Source: Alcaligenes sp. SORT26 (lineage in GTDB: Bacteria; Pseudomonadota; Gammaproteobacteria; Burkholderiales; Burkholderiaceae_B). From it: a stretch of DNA of 64,000 bases. The notes under the pieces were generated by a model. It was given only the letters and a program-made list of their open reading frames with translations, did not search any database and was not told where the DNA came from. This document shows positions 55,413 to 64,000 of the stretch, one piece after another (the stretch's first letter is position 1; the number at the start of each line of letters is the position of its first letter). The translations under genes and the position numbers were made by a program. The stretch spans positions 2,294,001 to 2,358,000 of the forward strand of contig NZ_CP070975.1 in NCBI RefSeq assembly GCF_017377875.1, in the 5' to 3' direction.

Positions 55413-57836
55413 TTAGAACTGATATTTCACCGCCAGCATCATGTTGCGCGGCTCGCCCCAGGTATAGGTGCTGTACCAGGAGAACATGGAGTAATAGCGC
55501 TTGTCGAACAAGTTATTGACGGTAAAGGTGGCCGACAAATTCTTGTTGAAGCGATAACGTGCCATCGCATCCACCAGCCAGTAACCCGAGACCGTATGCT
55601 GCACCTTGCCCGGCGATCCTGGTCGGCTGACATCGCCCCAGGTCTTGCTTTGCCAGCGCGCACCGCCACCTAGCGTCAGACCATTCAGCTCACCCTCGAA
55701 ATCATAGGTGGTGTAAATATTGAACTGATGCTCAGGCGATAAGGTCGACACCTTTTCACCATCGCGACGCGACAGCTTGTAGGCATAGCCCGCGTGCATC
55801 TGCCATTGCGGCGTCAACTGGCCAGCCACTTCCAGCTCTACCCCATTCGTACGCACGCCCTGGGTCGCCTCGTAGGCAATGCCGCCTGATGGTGTGCGCC
55901 CCCCCGTTTCCTTGCCAAAGTTATCCTGACGCAATTGGAAGTAAGCCACGCTCGACGTCAAACGCCCCCCCAGGAACTCGCCTTTGACACCGACCTCGTA
56001 GTTGTCACCACGCAAGGGGTCCAGCGTACGGCCGCCTTCGTCCCGCAGGTCTTGAGGCTGGAAGATGTTGGTGTAGCTGGCATAGACCGAGAAGTTGTCG
56101 TTCAGGTCGTACACGGCCCCAAAGTAAGGCACCCATACGCCCGTCTCACGCATATCCATCTTGTTGTAGTTGGCGTAGCGAGTACCGAGCAGCAGCTTCA
56201 AGTCATCACGCAGGTTCAGGCGCGTGCTGACGTACACGCCATTTTCCCGTGTCACTTCCCGATCATCGCCCAGATGCTCCCAGTTCATGCGCGGCCAGCG
56301 GCCATCCCATTCGTAGTAATTCGGGACATCGGTATTGCTGCTTTCTCCATAAGACGCATTGGTCCAGCGACGGCGTGATACCCCACCCCCGACCACCAGT
56401 TCATGCTCACGCCCAAATAGTTCAAAGGGGCCAGTCGCATAGAAGTCAGCCGTATTGGAGACCGTCTTGCCTACGTAGCGCCCGGACCATAAGGAAGTAC
56501 CTTTGCCGGTCAGAGGATCAGGATTTCCAGCAGCCACCGAAGCCAGTTCGGAGTCGTAGCCATTGATCAGGTGGTTAAGCTGCACCTTCGCCATCCAGCC
56601 GCTGTCGAACTCATGCTCCAGCGTGGCAAAGGCCGAACGGGTGTACTGGTTCCAGCGACTCCAGCGCGTACCGTTATTAAAGGAACGGTCCATATCGTTG
56701 AAATTGCCTTGCGCGTCATAGATCGGGATGCCGCCCCAGGTCGAGCCTTTGGGGTCGTTATCCTGCAAGTCCGCCCCCAGGGTCAGCCGGGTATCCGGTG
56801 TCAGGTCGGCTTCTACAATGCCGTACAACACCAAGGTCTGGCGCTGGTAGTGGTCCAACTGGCTTTTCTTGTCCTGATAGGCACCGACCATACGGCCACG
56901 TATAGAGCCTGTCTCGTTCAAGGGACCGGAGAAATCCACCTCACCACGATAGTTGTCCCAAGTGCCTGCACCCGCACTGGCATGGCCCTGAAACTCTTGC
57001 GTCGGCTTTTTACGAATCATATTGATCGTGGCGCCGGGGTTACCACTGCCGGTCAGCAGGCCAGAGGCCCCTTTCAAGACCTCGACACGATCATAAATGG
57101 CCATATCGCTGAGGGTGTTACCCGCGGAGTATGGCGAATCCCGCAAGGTGGGGATGCCGTCGTACTGGAAGTTCTTGATATCGAAGCCACGTGCCTCGTA
57201 GGCGGTACGCTCACTGTCGTACGTAATGATGCTGACACCTGGGGTATGGCGCACCACATCATCAATGCTGGTCAGATTGAAGTCGTCCATCATCTTGCGT
57301 GTGGTCACACTGATGGCCTGCGGTGTCTGGCGTGGCGTCAAGCGCAAACGGGTTGCCGTCGCAATCGTACCGGCAGCATAAGTGCCTGAACCTTCGGTAA
57401 TGTCGCCCAGTGCATTGCGGCGCACTTCAATACGCGACAAAGATTGCACACCCGCCTCATCAGCCAGGGTGTCGCTATCAGACAAGGCAATCAAGACATA
57501 GCCCTGATCCCGACTTTGAACCTGAAACGGCTGCCCGGCCAGCAAGGCGGCAAAACCTTCCTGTACCGAATACTGGCCTTGCAAGCGCGGCGCGCTCAGG
57601 CCCTGTAATCGCGAGGAATCCATCACCAAGGCCACCCCAGCCTGTTGAGCAAACTGGCTCAAGCGGCTGGCCAGATCACCGGCCTCCAGAGAATAGGCTT
57701 GCGTGTTCTGGGCCGATACCGGGGCCACATTCAGCATCAATGCCCCCACCACAGCCAAGCCCAGCAGGCGGCGATAAGTAGCAGGCATGAGCGGCGTCTT
57801 CACAAGCGCCAAAGGCGGCGCATTCTTCGGGACCAT
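55413..57836 (-). CDS. TonB-dependent siderophore receptor with STN signalling domain
   Basis: This 807-residue outer-membrane receptor starts at ATG 57836 (MVPKNAPPLALV) after a strong AAGGAG. It has a long signal region ending near VSAQN, an STN domain (residues about 50-115) that signals to FecR, a plug (TRKMMDDFNLTSIDDVVRHTPG) and a barrel ending in MMLAVKYQF. This is the FpvA/FhuE-like ferric-siderophore type. It is the last gene of the sigma-FecR-receptor operon. The siderophore is unknown. Confidence 0.93.
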   Translation of the reverse strand: MVPKNAPPLALVKTPLMPATYRRLLGLAVVGALMLNVAPVSAQNTQAYSLEAGDLASRLSQFAQQAGVALVMDSSRLQGLSAPRLQGQYSVQEGFAALLAGQPFQVQSRDQGYVLIALSDSDTLADEAGVQSLSRIEVRRNALGDITEGSGTYAAGTIATATRLRLTPRQTPQAISVTTRKMMDDFNLTSIDDVVRHTPGVSIITYDSERTAYEARGFDIKNFQYDGIPTLRDSPYSAGNTLSDMAIYDRVEVLKGASGLLTGSGNPGATINMIRKKPTQEFQGHASAGAGTWDNYRGEVDFSGPLNETGSIRGRMVGAYQDKKSQLDHYQRQTLVLYGIVEADLTPDTRLTLGADLQDNDPKGSTWGGIPIYDAQGNFNDMDRSFNNGTRWSRWNQYTRSAFATLEHEFDSGWMAKVQLNHLINGYDSELASVAAGNPDPLTGKGTSLWSGRYVGKTVSNTADFYATGPFELFGREHELVVGGGVSRRRWTNASYGESSNTDVPNYYEWDGRWPRMNWEHLGDDREVTRENGVYVSTRLNLRDDLKLLLGTRYANYNKMDMRETGVWVPYFGAVYDLNDNFSVYASYTNIFQPQDLRDEGGRTLDPLRGDNYEVGVKGEFLGGRLTSSVAYFQLRQDNFGKETGGRTPSGGIAYEATQGVRTNGVELEVAGQLTPQWQMHAGYAYKLSRRDGEKVSTLSPEHQFNIYTTYDFEGELNGLTLGGGARWQSKTWGDVSRPGSPGKVQHTVSGYWLVDAMARYRFNKNLSATFTVNNLFDKRYYSMFSWYSTYTWGEPRNMMLAVKYQF

Positions 57837-57899
57837 GAAATCTCTCCTTCTTTGGCAAGGTCTATCTGTTAAAGACGCACGAACCCAAAAAAGCGGCAA

Positions 57900-58877
57900 T
57901 CAAGGCCTGAAAGTAATCGTCAATATTTCGTCCGGCGTGTTCTGCACCTGCAAGCCGGGATACAGATCCTTCAGCAAGGCCAGGGCCGACAAAGGCTGAT
58001 CAGCAGGCAAGACGGCACTGACCGTCAAACCTGTCATCCCTTGTGGATTGACCTGTGTTTTGCCGGGGTATTGGCGGGTGATCTGCTCCAAAGCCTGTGT
58101 CAGCGGCATATGCTCCAGCACCAGTTGTCGCTGATCCCAATTACGCTTGCTACGCTCTACATCGGTCTGGCGATTCGCACCCAAACCTTGCGCATCAATC
58201 TGCACCTGATCCCCTGGCCCCAGCTCGCGTGCAGCTTGTGGGCCTTGGGCTCGTGGATAGGCCAGAACCCGAGAGGACAAGACGGTCAGCAAGGTGCCTT
58301 GCGGCTGCTCTTGCACAATGAACTCAGTGCCCAGAGCCTGCGAGACAGCCTGACTGCTTAATACCCGCAAGGGTCGATCCGGCTGTTTGGCGACCACCAC
58401 ACGAACCTGCCCTTCCAGCAGCTCAATATCCCGGTACTGTTTGCTGTACAGAATTTTTACCCGCGATGCACCCGCCAATTCCAGGCGAGAGCCATCTTCC
58501 AGCACCACGCTGCGCCATTGCCCAGCAGCGGTGTGCAAGGACTGATTCGACCAAGGAAACAGAAAGGCCAGGATTGGCAAGATAATCGCCAGCGCCCAGA
58601 GCGAGAGCATCATGCCCTGACGCCAATCGCGTAGCAGCTTGCGCCGTGCCGACAAGCCTGCATCCAGAGCACTACGTCCCGGAGCGTTATTTGCTTGTAC
58701 GGCCAGTTTTTTCACCGTACCCAATACGGTTTCCATCCCGGCGGCCGCCGCTTCGTGACGAGGATCCTGGGCACGCCAGGCTCTGAACTCGGCCTGGGCC
58801 TGCTCGGTGAATTGTTCGGGGTCAGACAGAAGCACTACCCATTGGGCCGCCTGTCGTTCAATTTCCGTACTGGACAT
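57900..58877 (-). CDS. FecR-family anti-sigma regulator
   Basis: The 325-residue protein has the N-terminal sigma-binding region (QAAQWVVLLSDPEQFTEQAQAEFRAW), one membrane span near residues 94-115, and a periplasmic FecR domain (LEDGSRLELAGASRVKILYSKQYRDIELLEGQV) with a C-terminal STN-contact part. It carries the receptor's signal to the sigma factor. I use ATG 58877; a TTG at 58886 that would overlap the sigma stop is possible. Confidence 0.9.
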   Translation of the reverse strand: MSSTEIERQAAQWVVLLSDPEQFTEQAQAEFRAWRAQDPRHEAAAAGMETVLGTVKKLAVQANNAPGRSALDAGLSARRKLLRDWRQGMMLSLWALAIILPILAFLFPWSNQSLHTAAGQWRSVVLEDGSRLELAGASRVKILYSKQYRDIELLEGQVRVVVAKQPDRPLRVLSSQAVSQALGTEFIVQEQPQGTLLTVLSSRVLAYPRAQGPQAARELGPGDQVQIDAQGLGANRQTDVERSKRNWDQRQLVLEHMPLTQALEQITRQYPGKTQVNPQGMTGLTVSAVLPADQPLSALALLKDLYPGLQVQNTPDEILTITFRP

Positions 58878-58882
58878 GAAAC

Positions 58883-59395
58883 TCAAGCAGGAATCAAGGT
58901 CTGGATATGGAGCAAGGCCTGCACCAGATCATTGCGCACGGTGCGTTCGCTGACGCCCAGGCGCTGAGCCACCACTGACTGGGTTTCCCCATCCAGATAG
59001 CAGCTTAAAAATGCCATGCGCGTCCGTTCAGGTAGCTCGTCCAGGGCTTGGGCCAACAAGGCCAGGGCTTCCAGGGTTTGAGCACACTGCTCTGCCGAGG
59101 GCGCTTGAGCCCCTTCGGCCAGCGTGGCCGCCAAGGCATCCAGATAGGCCTGCTCTACCGCCAGACGTCGGCTGCGATCAATCAGAAGCCGTCTGGCCGT
59201 GGTGGCCAGAAACGCACGGGGGTGACGTAAATGATGAACAGCGGACGGTGCCAGAAGCAGACGAACAAACGTGTCCTGAACCAGATCTTCCGCTGTAAAG
59301 CTGCAATGCAGGCGCGCACGCAACCACCGCAGCAACCAGCTACGGTGATCTTGATAGAAATCTCCCATTCCTATGGGCGCTGCCGGATAGTCCAT
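58883..59395 (-). CDS. FecI-type ECF sigma factor
   Basis: This 170-residue ECF sigma factor has region 2 (FTAEDLVQDTFVRLL and RAFLATTARRLLIDRSRR) and region 4 (ELPERTRMAFLSCYLDGETQSVVAQRLGVSERTVRNDL), the iron-starvation group pattern. It should drive the receptor gene when FecR releases it. The ATG at 59395 (MDYPAAPIG) is chosen; GTG 59410 and ATG 59368 are alternatives. A Fur box lies just upstream. Confidence 0.92.
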   Translation of the reverse strand: MDYPAAPIGMGDFYQDHRSWLLRWLRARLHCSFTAEDLVQDTFVRLLLAPSAVHHLRHPRAFLATTARRLLIDRSRRLAVEQAYLDALAATLAEGAQAPSAEQCAQTLEALALLAQALDELPERTRMAFLSCYLDGETQSVVAQRLGVSERTVRNDLVQALLHIQTLIPA

Positions 59396-59412
59396 ATCCC
59401 CTACACGCACTA

Positions 59413-59624: not shown

Positions 59625-59942
59625 TTACATCATGAAAGAAGGCAAAGTCAGCACAGCATGGGTGGGTGGACGACGGAAGCCTTCTGCATCGTTCAGACGG
59701 GCTTGAGCACGACGGGACAGATGTTTGAGGACTTGGCTACGCTCCACCGTAGGCAGCGTGGACAGTGCGTTTTCAATGGTGCGACCGGACAGGTCGTTGA
59801 GGGCGTAAGCAAACTCTCGAGCACCGTGAGTTTGCAGCAGCTCCAGCAGATAGCCTTGGCGCTGGCGGGATGCAGCCAAGCGCAGAGCGTCTTGCAGAGC
59901 ATTGTTGTGTGGAGCGGAACGGAACAGGTTGAGGCGGAACAT
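59625..59942 (-). CDS. Hypothetical protein (105 residues)
   Basis: A reading frame starting at ATG 59942 (MFRLNLFRSAPHNNALQDAL) has an ideal AAGGAG six bases upstream and a hairpin after its stop. The product is basic and probably helical, without signal peptide or membrane span. It is rich in Arg, Ala and Leu, with a middle part EFAYALNDLSGRTIENALSTLP. I do not recognise a family. The 389-bp gap upstream (59943-60331) holds a terminator near 60120 and nothing else I can support. Confidence 0.7.
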   Translation of the reverse strand: MFRLNLFRSAPHNNALQDALRLAASRQRQGYLLELLQTHGAREFAYALNDLSGRTIENALSTLPTVERSQVLKHLSRRAQARLNDAEGFRRPPTHAVLTLPSFMM

Positions 59943-60331: not shown

Positions 60332-62047
60332 TTAGAAGTGGTGCGTCAGACCAAAGGCCACACGGCTGCTACGCGGTTCGCTGGCGTTGGCAGCGGTTTC
60401 CATATCAAAGCGACGTCCTTGAGCCGCAAAGGCATAGACACTGGTGCGGGGCGACAAAGCATGCACATAGCCCACAGACATCACCTGAATGCGACGTGCG
60501 CGCTCGTCGGTATCCTCCCAGGTCCAGTTCGGACGGCCCAACGACCACTGCAACTGAAACTCGCCCTTGCCCACTGGAATCGCCGTGCCGACATACCAGG
60601 TATCCAGACGGCCACCGTTAATGAATTCTGCCGGGCCCAAACCTCCCAGCCCTTTGTCTTCCAGATGGGCCGGGCCATCATCACCATTCAGACCCACAAA
60701 ACCATTGCTCTGACGGCTCCAGCCAGCAGCAAGGCGGGCCACCTCAAAGTCATAGCTGGCCCCTAATTGCCAGGCCGTAGGACGATTGGATTCAACACGG
60801 CTCAGGCTTTCATAGCTGGCGCCCAGCAACCAAGGGCCATCCTCGTAACGCAGGGCCACGCTATAGAGTTTGGTCCGTGAGCCACCCATACCCTGCTCAC
60901 CCACATCTGCGCTGTAGCTGGCACCTAACTGCATGCCCGCCCATTCGGGGCTGCGCCAACTGAACTGATTGGAGATCTGATAATTATCGGAAGCGCGCAT
61001 CAAGGCGCCCATACCAAAGCCTTTCCAGGAACCCACTTCCACCGCAGAAACAAACTCCTGACCAACGGTGTACTGGCGTCCAAAACGCAGCTCCCCCCAG
61101 TGCTCACTGCCCAGACCTAGCCAGGCCTGATAGTTGAACAGACGATCTGATTCTTCAGCCCGGCCCGTCGCCAGATCAATGCCACTTTCCAGATTGAAGG
61201 TCGCGCGCAGGCCATCGCCCAAATCTTCATGGCCGCGAATCCCCCACAGAGAGTCCGTCTGCCCGCCGCTCAAGACCTCGCGCTGCGAGCCTTCGCCGCT
61301 AATGCGTGTCCAGCCCAAACCGGCATCCAAAATGCCATACAGTTGCACCGAAGTTTCAGCATGGCTGTGGCTAGGCAGCAGCAAACCAGCCATACCGGCC
61401 AGCGCCACACCCGCTGCCAGCGAGGCGGCTTTACTCAATTGAAAAGGGCTGAATTCCAGCACACGACGCCAGCCAGAAACGGCCGGAGCAGGTTCACGCA
61501 TCAAAATCCCCAATAAAGTTTTATTCCCCGTTGCCACAACCACTCCCTGTGCCGTGCCTGCTACTACCCGGTCGCCCATGGCGCAGGTATCCGGTGCCGC
61601 CTGCAAAATAGCGCGGTTCAAAATCAGGTGATCCTGCTGAATCAGGCGCAGATCGGCGGGCACATAATCCCCTGCCGATAACAGCACCACATCGCCCGTC
61701 ACCACCATGCGAGCGGGTACACGGGACTGGTGATCGCGCGCCAGATCGTACATGGTCAAATCACGGCGCACCTGACACGTTTGTTTTCTTAAAGTCTGGG
61801 CCAACTGGAGCAGATCACCGGGGCTGGAGCGCAGCGCCCGGATTTGATTGGGGCCGTTCTGAATCAGACGGCGCAAGACTTCATCAAAGGCCAGGCCGTG
61901 GCGCTGGGTATTCAGGGCTTGCAACACTTGCGGCACGCTGCGGGTGGCGTAGTAGCTCAGCGCACAGTGGGCGCGGCGCACCAGACGCACCGGGCTCTGG
62001 TGTACGACGGCGCTGTGATCGGGATGGAAAAACTGGCTTGCATTCAT
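60332..62047 (-). CDS. Fused frame: degenerate MgtA-type ATPase fragment plus outer-membrane porin
   Basis: A single 571-codon frame has two unrelated parts. Residues 42-185 resemble MgtA-type P-type ATPases: the N-terminal cation-ATPase region (LNTQRHGLAFDEVLRRL, NGPNQI) and the actuator domain (VTGDVVLLSAGDYVPADLRLI, VVAGTAQGVVVATGNKT). The first two membrane helices are missing, the TGES loop is replaced by AILQAA, and there is no phosphorylation (DKTGT) or nucleotide domain. Residues 204-230 form a signal peptide (cleavage after SHSHA), followed by a betaproteobacterial porin (ETSVQLYGILDAGLGWTRI) ending in Phe. The ATG at 62047 has AGAGG. An inner ATG at 61501 with GGGGA could make the porin alone (388 residues). 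The ATPase part may be a remnant or a leader. Confidence 0.85.
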   Translation of the reverse strand: MNASQFFHPDHSAVVHQSPVRLVRRAHCALSYYATRSVPQVLQALNTQRHGLAFDEVLRRLIQNGPNQIRALRSSPGDLLQLAQTLRKQTCQVRRDLTMYDLARDHQSRVPARMVVTGDVVLLSAGDYVPADLRLIQQDHLILNRAILQAAPDTCAMGDRVVAGTAQGVVVATGNKTLLGILMREPAPAVSGWRRVLEFSPFQLSKAASLAAGVALAGMAGLLLPSHSHAETSVQLYGILDAGLGWTRISGEGSQREVLSGGQTDSLWGIRGHEDLGDGLRATFNLESGIDLATGRAEESDRLFNYQAWLGLGSEHWGELRFGRQYTVGQEFVSAVEVGSWKGFGMGALMRASDNYQISNQFSWRSPEWAGMQLGASYSADVGEQGMGGSRTKLYSVALRYEDGPWLLGASYESLSRVESNRPTAWQLGASYDFEVARLAAGWSRQSNGFVGLNGDDGPAHLEDKGLGGLGPAEFINGGRLDTWYVGTAIPVGKGEFQLQWSLGRPNWTWEDTDERARRIQVMSVGYVHALSPRTSVYAFAAQGRRFDMETAANASEPRSSRVAFGLTHHF

Positions 62048-62161
62048 GGGTACCTCTACACATTGGTACAGGGACGGCCACCCCGCTCTGAAAGGCTAAG
62101 GATGTGTTTACCGTCGCAGTGGAAAGACAAAAATCGCTGATTGATTCGGGTAGGAATTACC

Positions 62162-62296: not shown

Positions 62297-63199
62297 TCAA
62301 CGCAATGCGCCCGATTTTTTGATTGTCCATATCGGCACCGCCGTCAAAGCCAGAACGGTCACCAACTGCACCCACATTGTGCCTTCCCAAGATAACTCGG
62401 GCATGACATGAAAGTTCTGACCATACCAGTTAATCAAGGCCGTGCCGGGCACCAGCAAGGCCCACAGCACGGTAAAGACTTTGGTCACGTTCAGATCACT
62501 CATGGCCACGGATTCGCCTGCAGCACGCCAATGAAACCGTTGACGCTCAATGGCAAAATGCGCACGGCGCTGCATCCCTTCAATGGCGGCAATCAGCTCG
62601 TCCACGCGGCTCAAGGCCATGCTTTGTCCCTGATACACCAAGCGGCGCAAACGCTGTGCGGCCTGCTCCAGATCGTCAATCGAATGCATGACGTAAGACA
62701 GCGGCTTGTGCAGGGTGGCCATATGGCTATCCAGATCAATCATGTCCTCGGCACCGCGCGAATAATCCGTGCCTACATTGGATAGAAAGCCGCGCAGGGA
62801 CAAGGTGGAGACGCTCAAGCCCTGATCAATGCGATCCAGCACTTGAGAGGTCTGGGCCAACAGTTGATACAGCAGCGTCAAGGCCAAGGCATGCGAGCTG
62901 GCCAAAGACATTTCCTGCGCACTCAGGCGTTCCAGCGCCTGGCCTGGACGCAGCAGGCGATACCCCGTTTCCACGGTGTACAGCGGCTGTTCATCCTCTC
63001 CCAAGCGCCAGACCAGGTCAGAAACCTGTACCTGATCCTCCTGCAGGCGCACACAGCGGATACGGGTACTCATGCCCAGGCTGGCCTGAGTCTGCGGCAC
63101 CAGATCCACGCGGTACAACTTGCCCAAGTCCTCCAGTGCCTGACGGTCGGGGGCCTGCAAGCGCCGCCAGGAAGCCATATCCTTGAAACGGGCCGTCAT
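62297..63199 (-). CDS. CorA-family transporter-like protein with GQN motif (second copy)
   Basis: This 300-residue protein has the CorA layout: a long cytoplasmic alpha-beta and helical region and two C-terminal spans (about 240-258 and 275-292). The CorA signature before the last loop reads YGQNFHVMPEL (residues 259-269), with Gln in place of the Met of the conserved GMN selectivity motif. The start ATG overlaps the previous stop (ATGA), so it is coupled to the first copy. Transport of magnesium, cobalt or another divalent ion is inferred. Confidence 0.87.
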   Translation of the reverse strand: MTARFKDMASWRRLQAPDRQALEDLGKLYRVDLVPQTQASLGMSTRIRCVRLQEDQVQVSDLVWRLGEDEQPLYTVETGYRLLRPGQALERLSAQEMSLASSHALALTLLYQLLAQTSQVLDRIDQGLSVSTLSLRGFLSNVGTDYSRGAEDMIDLDSHMATLHKPLSYVMHSIDDLEQAAQRLRRLVYQGQSMALSRVDELIAAIEGMQRRAHFAIERQRFHWRAAGESVAMSDLNVTKVFTVLWALLVPGTALINWYGQNFHVMPELSWEGTMWVQLVTVLALTAVPIWTIKKSGALR

Positions 63200-64000
63200 C
63201 GCATCCACCCTTTGCGTTTCACGTAGGCCAAAGGAGCCAAGGCAAAAATGGCGGTCATGCCCATCACCAGCCACTCGCCGCTGACAATTTCCAGCTCGGG
63301 CATATTCGCAAAGTTCTGGCCGTAGAACGCAGCGATCAGCGTGGGCGGCAGGAACACGGCGGTCACCACCGTAAAGACCTTGATCACCTGGTTTTGCTTC
63401 AAATCCAATGTGGTCATCAAGGACTGCTGCAGATTGCGGATTTTGTCGTGCTGGAAACGGGCATAGCGGCGCAAGCTTTGAATGTCCGAAAGCAGCATGG
63501 ACAGGTTCTCTGCACTTTCACCACCGGGGGTACGACGCAGCCAGCGGCCCGCTCGTGCGAGCATCAACTGACCTTCCACGGTTTTAGCGACCAGCTCTTC
63601 CGCCTCACCCAAACCGATGGCGGTGCTGGCGATATCTGCTACCCCGGCCTGACGTCCCGAGGTATCAAAGCCGCCACTGGCCGCCGCGACCGTATCGCTG
63701 CGCTCGTCCAGACGACCGGCCACGTCAGAAATCGTGGCGCGAGCCTGATCGTTCAAGGCCTGCAAAATCATGAACAGAATCGACGCGGGGCTGGGTGCAG
63801 GCTGGCCCGAATCCACCAGGGCATGCAATTGCTGGCTGACCCGCTCCAGCGTATCCACACGTACGTCCTGCTCCACACTGATCAAACGATCTTTACCCAA
63901 AGCAAACAACAGACTGGTTTCCCGATACTGCTGTCCTTGGCGTATCACCATTTCCACGGGAATCAGAATAAAGCCTGCCTCTTCGGCGGCGGCACGGCCC
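63196..64000 (-). CDS. CorA-family transporter-like protein with GQN motif (first copy, 5' end outside window)
   Basis: The visible 268 residues are the C-terminal part of a CorA-like protein; the frame stays open to the window edge, so the start lies beyond it. The last part, VFTVVTAVFLPPTLIAAFYGQNFANMPELE, is the CorA pore helix and signature, again GQN rather than GMN. The tail ends in KRKGWMR, like CorA. It is followed by an overlapping second copy of the same family, which points to a tandem duplication or a two-subunit channel. Confidence 0.87.
   Translation of the reverse strand, partial: GRAAAEEAGFILIPVEMVIRQGQQYRETSLLFALGKDRLISVEQDVRVDTLERVSQQLHALVDSGQPAPSPASILFMILQALNDQARATISDVAGRLDERSDTVAAASGGFDTSGRQAGVADIASTAIGLGEAEELVAKTVEGQLMLARAGRWLRRTPGGESAENLSMLLSDIQSLRRYARFQHDKIRNLQQSLMTTLDLKQNQVIKVFTVVTAVFLPPTLIAAFYGQNFANMPELEIVSGEWLVMGMTAIFALAPLAYVKRKGWMR

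Follow-up and report, generated by a model that had tools for sequence, protein, structure and literature searches.

In Alcaligenes sp. SORT26, a single reading frame of 571 codons joins a shortened piece of the magnesium pump MgtA to an outer-membrane porin. The frame was found in a window of 64,000 nucleotides, the whole stretch of DNA analysed here, and is real, with no assembly error behind it. As judged from sequence comparison, a porin with the actuator (A) domain of a pump ahead of its signal peptide, on the side that faces the cytosol, is a real entity, present in five genera, kept by selection, and linked with magnesium. The features of the locus are listed in Table 1.

Table 1. Features of the fusion locus, in positions of the window
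Feature	Position	Strand	Remarks
Fusion gene (MgtA actuator piece, signal peptide, and porin)	60332..62047	minus	571 codons, open from ATG at 62047
AGAGG, likely ribosome site of ATG 62047	62053..62057	minus	five bases ahead of the ATG
Cation_ATPase_N remnant	61838..61948	minus	residues 34-70; Pfam PF00690 above cut-off
Actuator (A) domain without TGES loop	61496..61780	minus	residues 90-184; PF00122 above cut-off on the N-part alone
Codon 183 (ATG), candidate internal start	61499..61501	minus	ATG in 4/5 Alcaligenes copies
Codon 171 (GTG), second candidate internal start	61535..61537	minus	GGAG five bases ahead
Internal signal peptide, predicted cut between SHA and ET	61358..61435	minus	residues 205-230, read by eye
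Mature porin	60332..61357	minus	residues 231-571 and stop, terminal Phe; Pfam PF13609 6.8e-46 on the whole frame
CorA-like protein (trio 1, third)	62297..63199	minus	Pfam CorA 1.8e-10, above cut-off
CorA protein (trio 1, second)	63196..64000	minus	continues beyond the window end; Pfam CorA 1.6e-40 on the full frame L065:7197-8150
Small ORF after the fusion gene, weakly MgtE_N-like	59625..59942	minus	MgtE_N E 0.14 only

Architecture of the joined frame

An earlier note on this DNA had described a continuous frame of this length, with a first third derived from MgtA that lacks the membrane helices, the TGES loop, and the phosphorylation and nucleotide domains, followed by a porin with an internal signal peptide, in the neighbourhood of CorA-like genes. 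This description was borne out by Pfam, NCBIfam, and the alignments reported below, as the frame is open from its ATG and recurs in other genomes, and the neighbours match CorA above the cut-off. Pfam recognizes Cation_ATPase_N (residues 34–70), E1-E2_ATPase (105–184), and Porin_4 (220–545) in the frame, all above curated cut-offs, with PF13609 scoring 157.9 bits against a cut-off of 27. The MgtA-type models of NCBIfam give 67.2 and 48.5 bits and do not reach their cut-offs of 975 and 610.75, so that the frame is far from a whole MgtA. Since an intact mgtA of 900 codons is present elsewhere in the genome, which is one contig of 4.08 Mb, the fusion frame is not the sole MgtA-like gene of the cell; that gene is situated ~60 kb beyond the edge of the window, at a distance of 120 kb from the fusion. 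AGAGG is also found ahead of the same start in all five Alcaligenes fusions, as well as ahead of the start in G001, an Alcaligenes genome that has no fusion.

In an alignment of the ten fusions with the N termini of 14 pumps (alignment A3), TM1–2 and the TGES loop are missing from all fusions, as is everything from TM3 onward, with the signal peptide in place of the TM3 start. The nucleotide domain and the phosphorylation domain (motif DKTGT) are also missing, and the sequence runs into the porin instead. Both the core GD.V.L.AGD.VPAD.R and the second half, G..V..G.A..VV.TG, are kept, and the best 19-residue hydropathy in the N-terminal part is 1.06–1.82. The fusion resembles MgtA, a Mg2+-transporting P-type ATPase (P3B), in its N-terminal helices and actuator fold, and its two parts correspond to the mgtA and porin genes that adjoin each other in relatives, but it has none of the membrane helices, TGES, phosphorylation, or nucleotide domains of the pump and cannot pump. 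By sequence, the N-terminal part is of MgtA-type origin, shortened yet conserved.

The structure predicted for residues 1–230 from an alignment of the ten fusions and 14 pump N termini has a mean pLDDT of 76.7, with 111 of the 230 modelled residues at or above 90. Ten of the 15 ten-residue blocks from residue 31 to 180 average above 90, a result to which the pump N termini in the alignment contribute. A model of the full-length chain was of low quality, with a mean pLDDT of 49. When the model was compared with the PDB by Foldseek, the best 50 of 378 matches were all P-type ATPases; E. coli MgtA came ninth and tenth among them (8uy7: 4.2e-10, query TM-score 0.55). According to the model, an actuator-domain fold is present in the N-terminal part.

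The places of MgtA residues D191, E173, E220, and D204 in the fusions were set through the E. coli MgtA sequence. The D191 place is acidic in all ten fusions, whereas the E173 place is occupied by Arg or Lys in eight of them, the stretch bearing E220 is deleted, and an acidic residue near the D204 place is off by one. The cytosolic Mg2+ sites of MgtA use residues of the A domain, with the ligand residues named in two papers (PMC10925321, PMC13174805). Measured against those ligands, sensing of Mg2+ by such sites is not supported for the fusion, most of the A-domain ligands being gone.

The terminal Phe571 of the porin is invariant in the ten fusions, all of which also have a net positive stretch ahead of the signal-peptide core. 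The signal peptides and their putative cut sites were judged by eye; the latter read SHA in seven fusions and SLG, AHA, and AQA in one each, with small residues at –3 and –1 throughout. The likeness to the general porins of Gram-negative bacteria (Porin_4) includes the whole barrel, as recognized by the profile, the signal peptide, and the terminal Phe, the difference being the ~200 residues that precede the signal peptide in the fusion. The signal peptide stands at the place of the TM3 start in the MgtA of the window's own genome (alignment A3). In P-type pumps, TM3 passes from inside to outside, as does a signal peptide, so the topology fits for one protein. The objection that a single protein would make no topological sense, raised in the earlier note, does not hold against this position of the signal peptide, its positive flank, and its small –3 and –1 residues, and topology, as read from the sequences, is no obstacle. 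Cytochrome b–c1, encoded by fbcH of Bradyrhizobium, exemplifies the bacterial polyproteins that are split at a signal peptide within the chain. The fusion is similar in that such a peptide links a membrane or cytosolic part to one that is exported, but here the exported part is an outer-membrane barrel, and the part ahead of it derives from another enzyme, of which it is a single domain.

Distribution, selection, and origin

A search of the family for the same joined architecture, as proposed in the earlier note, found the joined frame open in 10 of 268 genomes and in 5 of 43 genera (profile of the N-terminal part, E 1e-18). Within the genus Alcaligenes, five of ten genomes have the whole joined frame, namely the source and four others at 92–93% identity, and the N-terminal parts of the five fusions from other genera are 31–50% identical to that in the window. 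The length of the linker differs between the fusions, yet the frame is kept. A single-sequence search of the family (E 1e-6) matched 31 of the 268 genomes, i.e., the same ten and 21 others, in which the matches lie within frames of 837–1031 codons, the size of a whole pump. An order-level draw of 399 genomes, partly of this family, yielded no further joined frame; at E 1e-15, the five matches besides the genome itself were all in frames of 901–925 codons. Among the best 80 of 541 relatives in the named collection, Alcaligenes faecalis AU14 (92%) matches residues 1–182 of the N-terminal part, ‘Alcaligenaceae bacterium 429’ (52%) matches residues 18–182, and the remaining 78 are at most 45% identical. 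The plasmid search gave only one short P-type ATPase match, PADLOC found nothing, and the fusion is not described among the matches listed in the literature searched.

Values of dN/dS were calculated by the Nei-Gojobori method for the ten pairs of the five Alcaligenes copies. They are 0.025–0.17 for the A domain (residues 104–182) and 0.027–0.10 for the porin, with a looser region at residues 71–103 (0–0.66) and 0.06–0.34 in the signal peptide. For G182 compared with G177 the values are 0.018 for the A domain and 0.012 for the porin, and for G060 compared with G202 they are 0.30 and 0.18, so that selection is less plain in that pair. The fusion gene is under strong selection and looks like that of a working two-compartment protein, not like a broken gene. 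The N-terminal part had been called degenerate; with its low dN/dS and its retention in five genera, it is better described as shortened and conserved.

To trace the origin of the fusion, 23 of 69 rows of unfused porins were read. Eleven of these loci have an intact mgtA immediately upstream of the porin and in the same orientation, always with a small MgtC_C-like ORF ahead of mgtA; four have such an ORF ahead of the porin without mgtA, one has mgtA on the other side of the porin, and seven have no mgtA in the stretch. The MgtC_C-like ORF (L074:5467-5859, L202:10772-11143, and others), present in these 15 of the 23 unfused loci, is mostly 118–142 codons long from its first start; the copy of G060, the sole one given to Pfam, has an E of 0.016, below the cut-off. 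The order in G060 and G202 is MgtC_C-like ORF, an ORF of 172–173 codons with no known identity, fusion, MgtE, and MgtC. G092 has an mgtA–porin pair and also the fusion. Because mgtA is found directly upstream of the porin so often, the fusion is probably what remained of such a gene pair after the middle and end of the pump had been lost. Relatives with separate, intact mgtA and porin genes, which had been considered as a sign that the frame came from an error of sequencing or assembly, do exist, but such an error, or a recent accident, is ruled out by the ten genomes in five genera.

In the porin tree (33 rows, with a very long outgroup row left out), eight fusions and G001 form one clade (100/100), with G060 + G202 and G121 branching unresolved beside that clade and 19 unfused rows. 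The fusion label needs three changes on this tree, and the fusions form one undivided group in 0% of the bootstrap trees. In the tree of N-terminal parts, the ten fusions stand apart from the 14 pumps (86/80), subject to a long-branch warning. Since the porin of G001 falls within the clade formed by the eight fusions, and its frame is still open between M1 and the signal peptide, this genome has probably lost the A domain. One gain with losses would fit these trees, and two gains are also possible.

Magnesium transporters in the company of the fusion

The fusion is linked with extra Mg2+ transporters, eight genomes having a CorA trio and two having MgtE–MgtC beside the fusion, which supports, as a link to Mg2+ transport, the metal-linked unit suggested in the earlier note. 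The Alcaligenes fusion belongs to an operon-like run of small ORF, small ORF, CorA, small ORF, CorA, CorA-like, fusion, and small ORF; the second and fourth ORFs are small, with a membrane helix seen by eye. The CorA genes are absent from the fusion locus of G005. When CorA copies were counted in 15 genomes, four were found in each of eight fusion genomes (all but G060 and G202), and one in each of G060, G202, and the five fusion-less Alcaligenes, including G001. A marker of trio 1 (its third, CorA-like protein, E 1e-20) is present in five of the 268 family genomes and a marker of trio 2 (E 1e-40) in three; all eight are fusion genomes, with no overlap between the two, and the association refers to these two marker types across 268 genomes, CorA trios of other kinds having been sought in 15. 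In G005, ~17 kb separate trio 2 from the fusion; in G182 and G177, the trio is on a different contig. It is preceded by an M-box Mg2+ riboswitch in G005 and G182, and the contig of G177 starts within the trio. The M-box (RF00380) leaders ahead of the CorA trio in G182 and G005 (L232:1450-1620 and L233:2430-2600) are 90.8% identical between the two genera, and the two of the three CorA genes that were compared are 83–84% identical.

Downstream of the fusion, MgtE and MgtC were identified by Pfam in G060 and by likeness to the G060 genes in G202. A search of 21 genomes found three copies of MgtE in G060 and two in G202, one of which adjoins the fusion in each case. Of nine other genomes from the genus of G060, seven have one match and two have two, with one of the matches below the cut-off in one genome and one in two pieces in the other; the four others from the genus of G202 have one each. 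Two copies of MgtE are also found in G000 (the genome of the window), G001, and G121, and MgtE–MgtC lies ~6 kb from the unfused porin of G121, which counts against a tight link with Mg2+ transporters. The counts of co-occurrence are also dependent, as half of the ten fusion genomes belong to one genus and some clusters look transferred. The uptake genes, CorA and MgtE–MgtC, are in sum neighbours or companions of the fusion, one type of trio carrying an M-box, and their partners described so far are not known to include such a fusion.

According to Rfam, the M-box is absent from the stretches around the ten fusions and G001, and nothing related to Mg was found at the fusion loci, which counts against a role in Mg2+ uptake. 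Other matches above the gathering score, elsewhere in the stretches, were asX6, a group II intron, and a cobalamin riboswitch. A 111-base element lies ahead of the fusion operon or gene (L065:10636-10746, minus strand, corresponding to 2360635-2360745 of the genome, outside the window), with 39 invariant columns in eight loci of two genera, G001 included, and a TATACC..TATA dyad. It is possibly an operator; an RNA structure is not well supported, with an unfavourable covariation term of +0.59 and 4 of 24 pairs changed on both sides. The Alcaligenes operon is flanked by two similar small ORFs, the one that follows the fusion gene (Table 1) and L065:9899-10246 (minus), which are 41% identical; no Pfam match was found for the latter, and ORFs like the former occur in six Alcaligenes loci and, weakly, in G092. 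Genes like those of a TonB receptor, FecR, and FecI, judged from their translations, lie beside the locus (55413-59410, minus).

Possible translation and roles of the joined frame

There is no stop between the two parts, so any chain begun at M1 includes the porin, and its simplest path would be membrane insertion through the internal signal peptide, followed by cleavage. The match to a ribosome site ahead of M1 has five bases in all five Alcaligenes fusions, four in G182, G177, G060, and G202, and three in G092. We infer that the frame is translated as one chain, inserted in the membrane, and cut, and that its first piece has a regulatory role. In the account that we favour, with rather less than even confidence, the single polypeptide would be cut at the signal peptide to yield two products, a porin and a pseudo-actuator that is tethered to the membrane in the cytosol and serves the uptake of magnesium. 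The first ~185 residues of the chain would fold in the cytosol as a catalytically dead actuator domain of MgtA type, and the signal peptide, in the place of TM3, would enter the inner membrane in the N-in/C-out orientation. After cleavage by signal peptidase, the porin would be released to the outer membrane, and the actuator piece, made 1:1 with it, would remain at the cytosolic face, with the helix of the signal peptide as its tether. There it might act as a partner or regulator of the co-occurring inner-membrane Mg2+ channels (the CorA trio or MgtE–MgtC), a doubtful proposal and the weakest step of the account. We can speculate further, at the price of still greater doubt, that the product is a two-membrane polyprotein, in which the actuator of a gutted pump has become a cytosolic subunit, made in fixed ratio with a porin, that gates foreign Mg2+ channels (CorA trios, MgtE) and so ties together the permeability of two membranes.

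A single chain is favoured because the joined frame is kept in five genera with frame-preserving changes in the linker, dN/dS is low in both the A domain and the porin, a ribosome site precedes M1 in most fusions, no single internal start is common to all ten, and pLDDT exceeds 90 in most blocks of the N-terminal part. The mgtA–porin pairs in relatives, together with the co-occurrence of extra Mg2+ transporters, favour the account as a whole. G001, inside the fusion clade, has M1 and the signal peptide in one frame with the A domain absent, so that even this genome retains a chain running from M1 into the porin.

It is unlikely, in our estimate, that two starts are used, with translation of most of the porin starting internally (in Alcaligenes, at GTG171 or ATG183) and the chain from M1 either minor or cytosolic, its A domain acting there. 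GTG171 has a ribosome-site match of four to five bases in all five Alcaligenes copies, ATG183 is preceded by AGGAG in two of the four copies that have it (G005 and G008) and by a weaker site in the other two, and TTG177 follows GGAG in G182 and G177, with a few other candidates having at least four matching bases in single or paired genomes. An internal start is thereby possible in seven of the ten fusions, and these candidates, as well as the three-base match at M1 of G092, weaken the case for a single chain. On the other hand, codon 183 is TTG in G007, G092, G060, and G202 have no internal candidate with at least four matching bases, and the bases ahead of codons 171 and 183 also code for conserved residues, so that the matches may be due to chance. 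The start of the porin at 61501, proposed in the earlier note, is possible in Alcaligenes and does not extend to the fusions in general; the other option given there, a purely regulatory leader, would leave the selection on amino acids unexplained.

A role of the A domain in export of the porin, as an extreme form of extended signal-peptide region whose folding in the cytosol would delay or gate the insertion step, is fairly improbable. The A domain does stand directly ahead of the signal peptide in all ten fusions, and the best 15-residue hydropathy of the signal-peptide core is 1.77–2.25 in the fusions compared with 1.39–2.04 in six unfused porins, but neither the co-occurrence with CorA trios or MgtE–MgtC nor the retention of a pump domain would be explained, and a short leader suffices in G001. 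Still less probable is an A domain acting as a decoy or inhibitor of intact MgtA by competing for its P and N domains. Eight of the ten fusion genomes have an intact mgtA, and a domain without the TGES loop would be a dead competitor, but G060 and G202 carry the fusion with no MgtA found at E 1e-100, and three of the five fusion-less Alcaligenes keep MgtA. That the gene is a mere relic or artefact of a recent fusion or faulty assembly is hardly credible in view of its spread, low dN/dS, and predicted fold, even with the hallmark motifs of MgtA missing, and would require the same error in all ten assemblies.

If the favoured account of one chain cut at the signal peptide is true, a single protein, half of it meant for the cytosol and half for the outer membrane, has been kept across genera, and an actuator domain can outlast its pump and gain a new job. 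A natural series for comparison is formed by the relatives in which mgtA adjoins the porin, those that have the fusion, and G001, whose porin belongs to the fusion clade and lacks the A domain, and the fusion would offer a handle on how magnesium uptake is coordinated through the outer and inner membranes.
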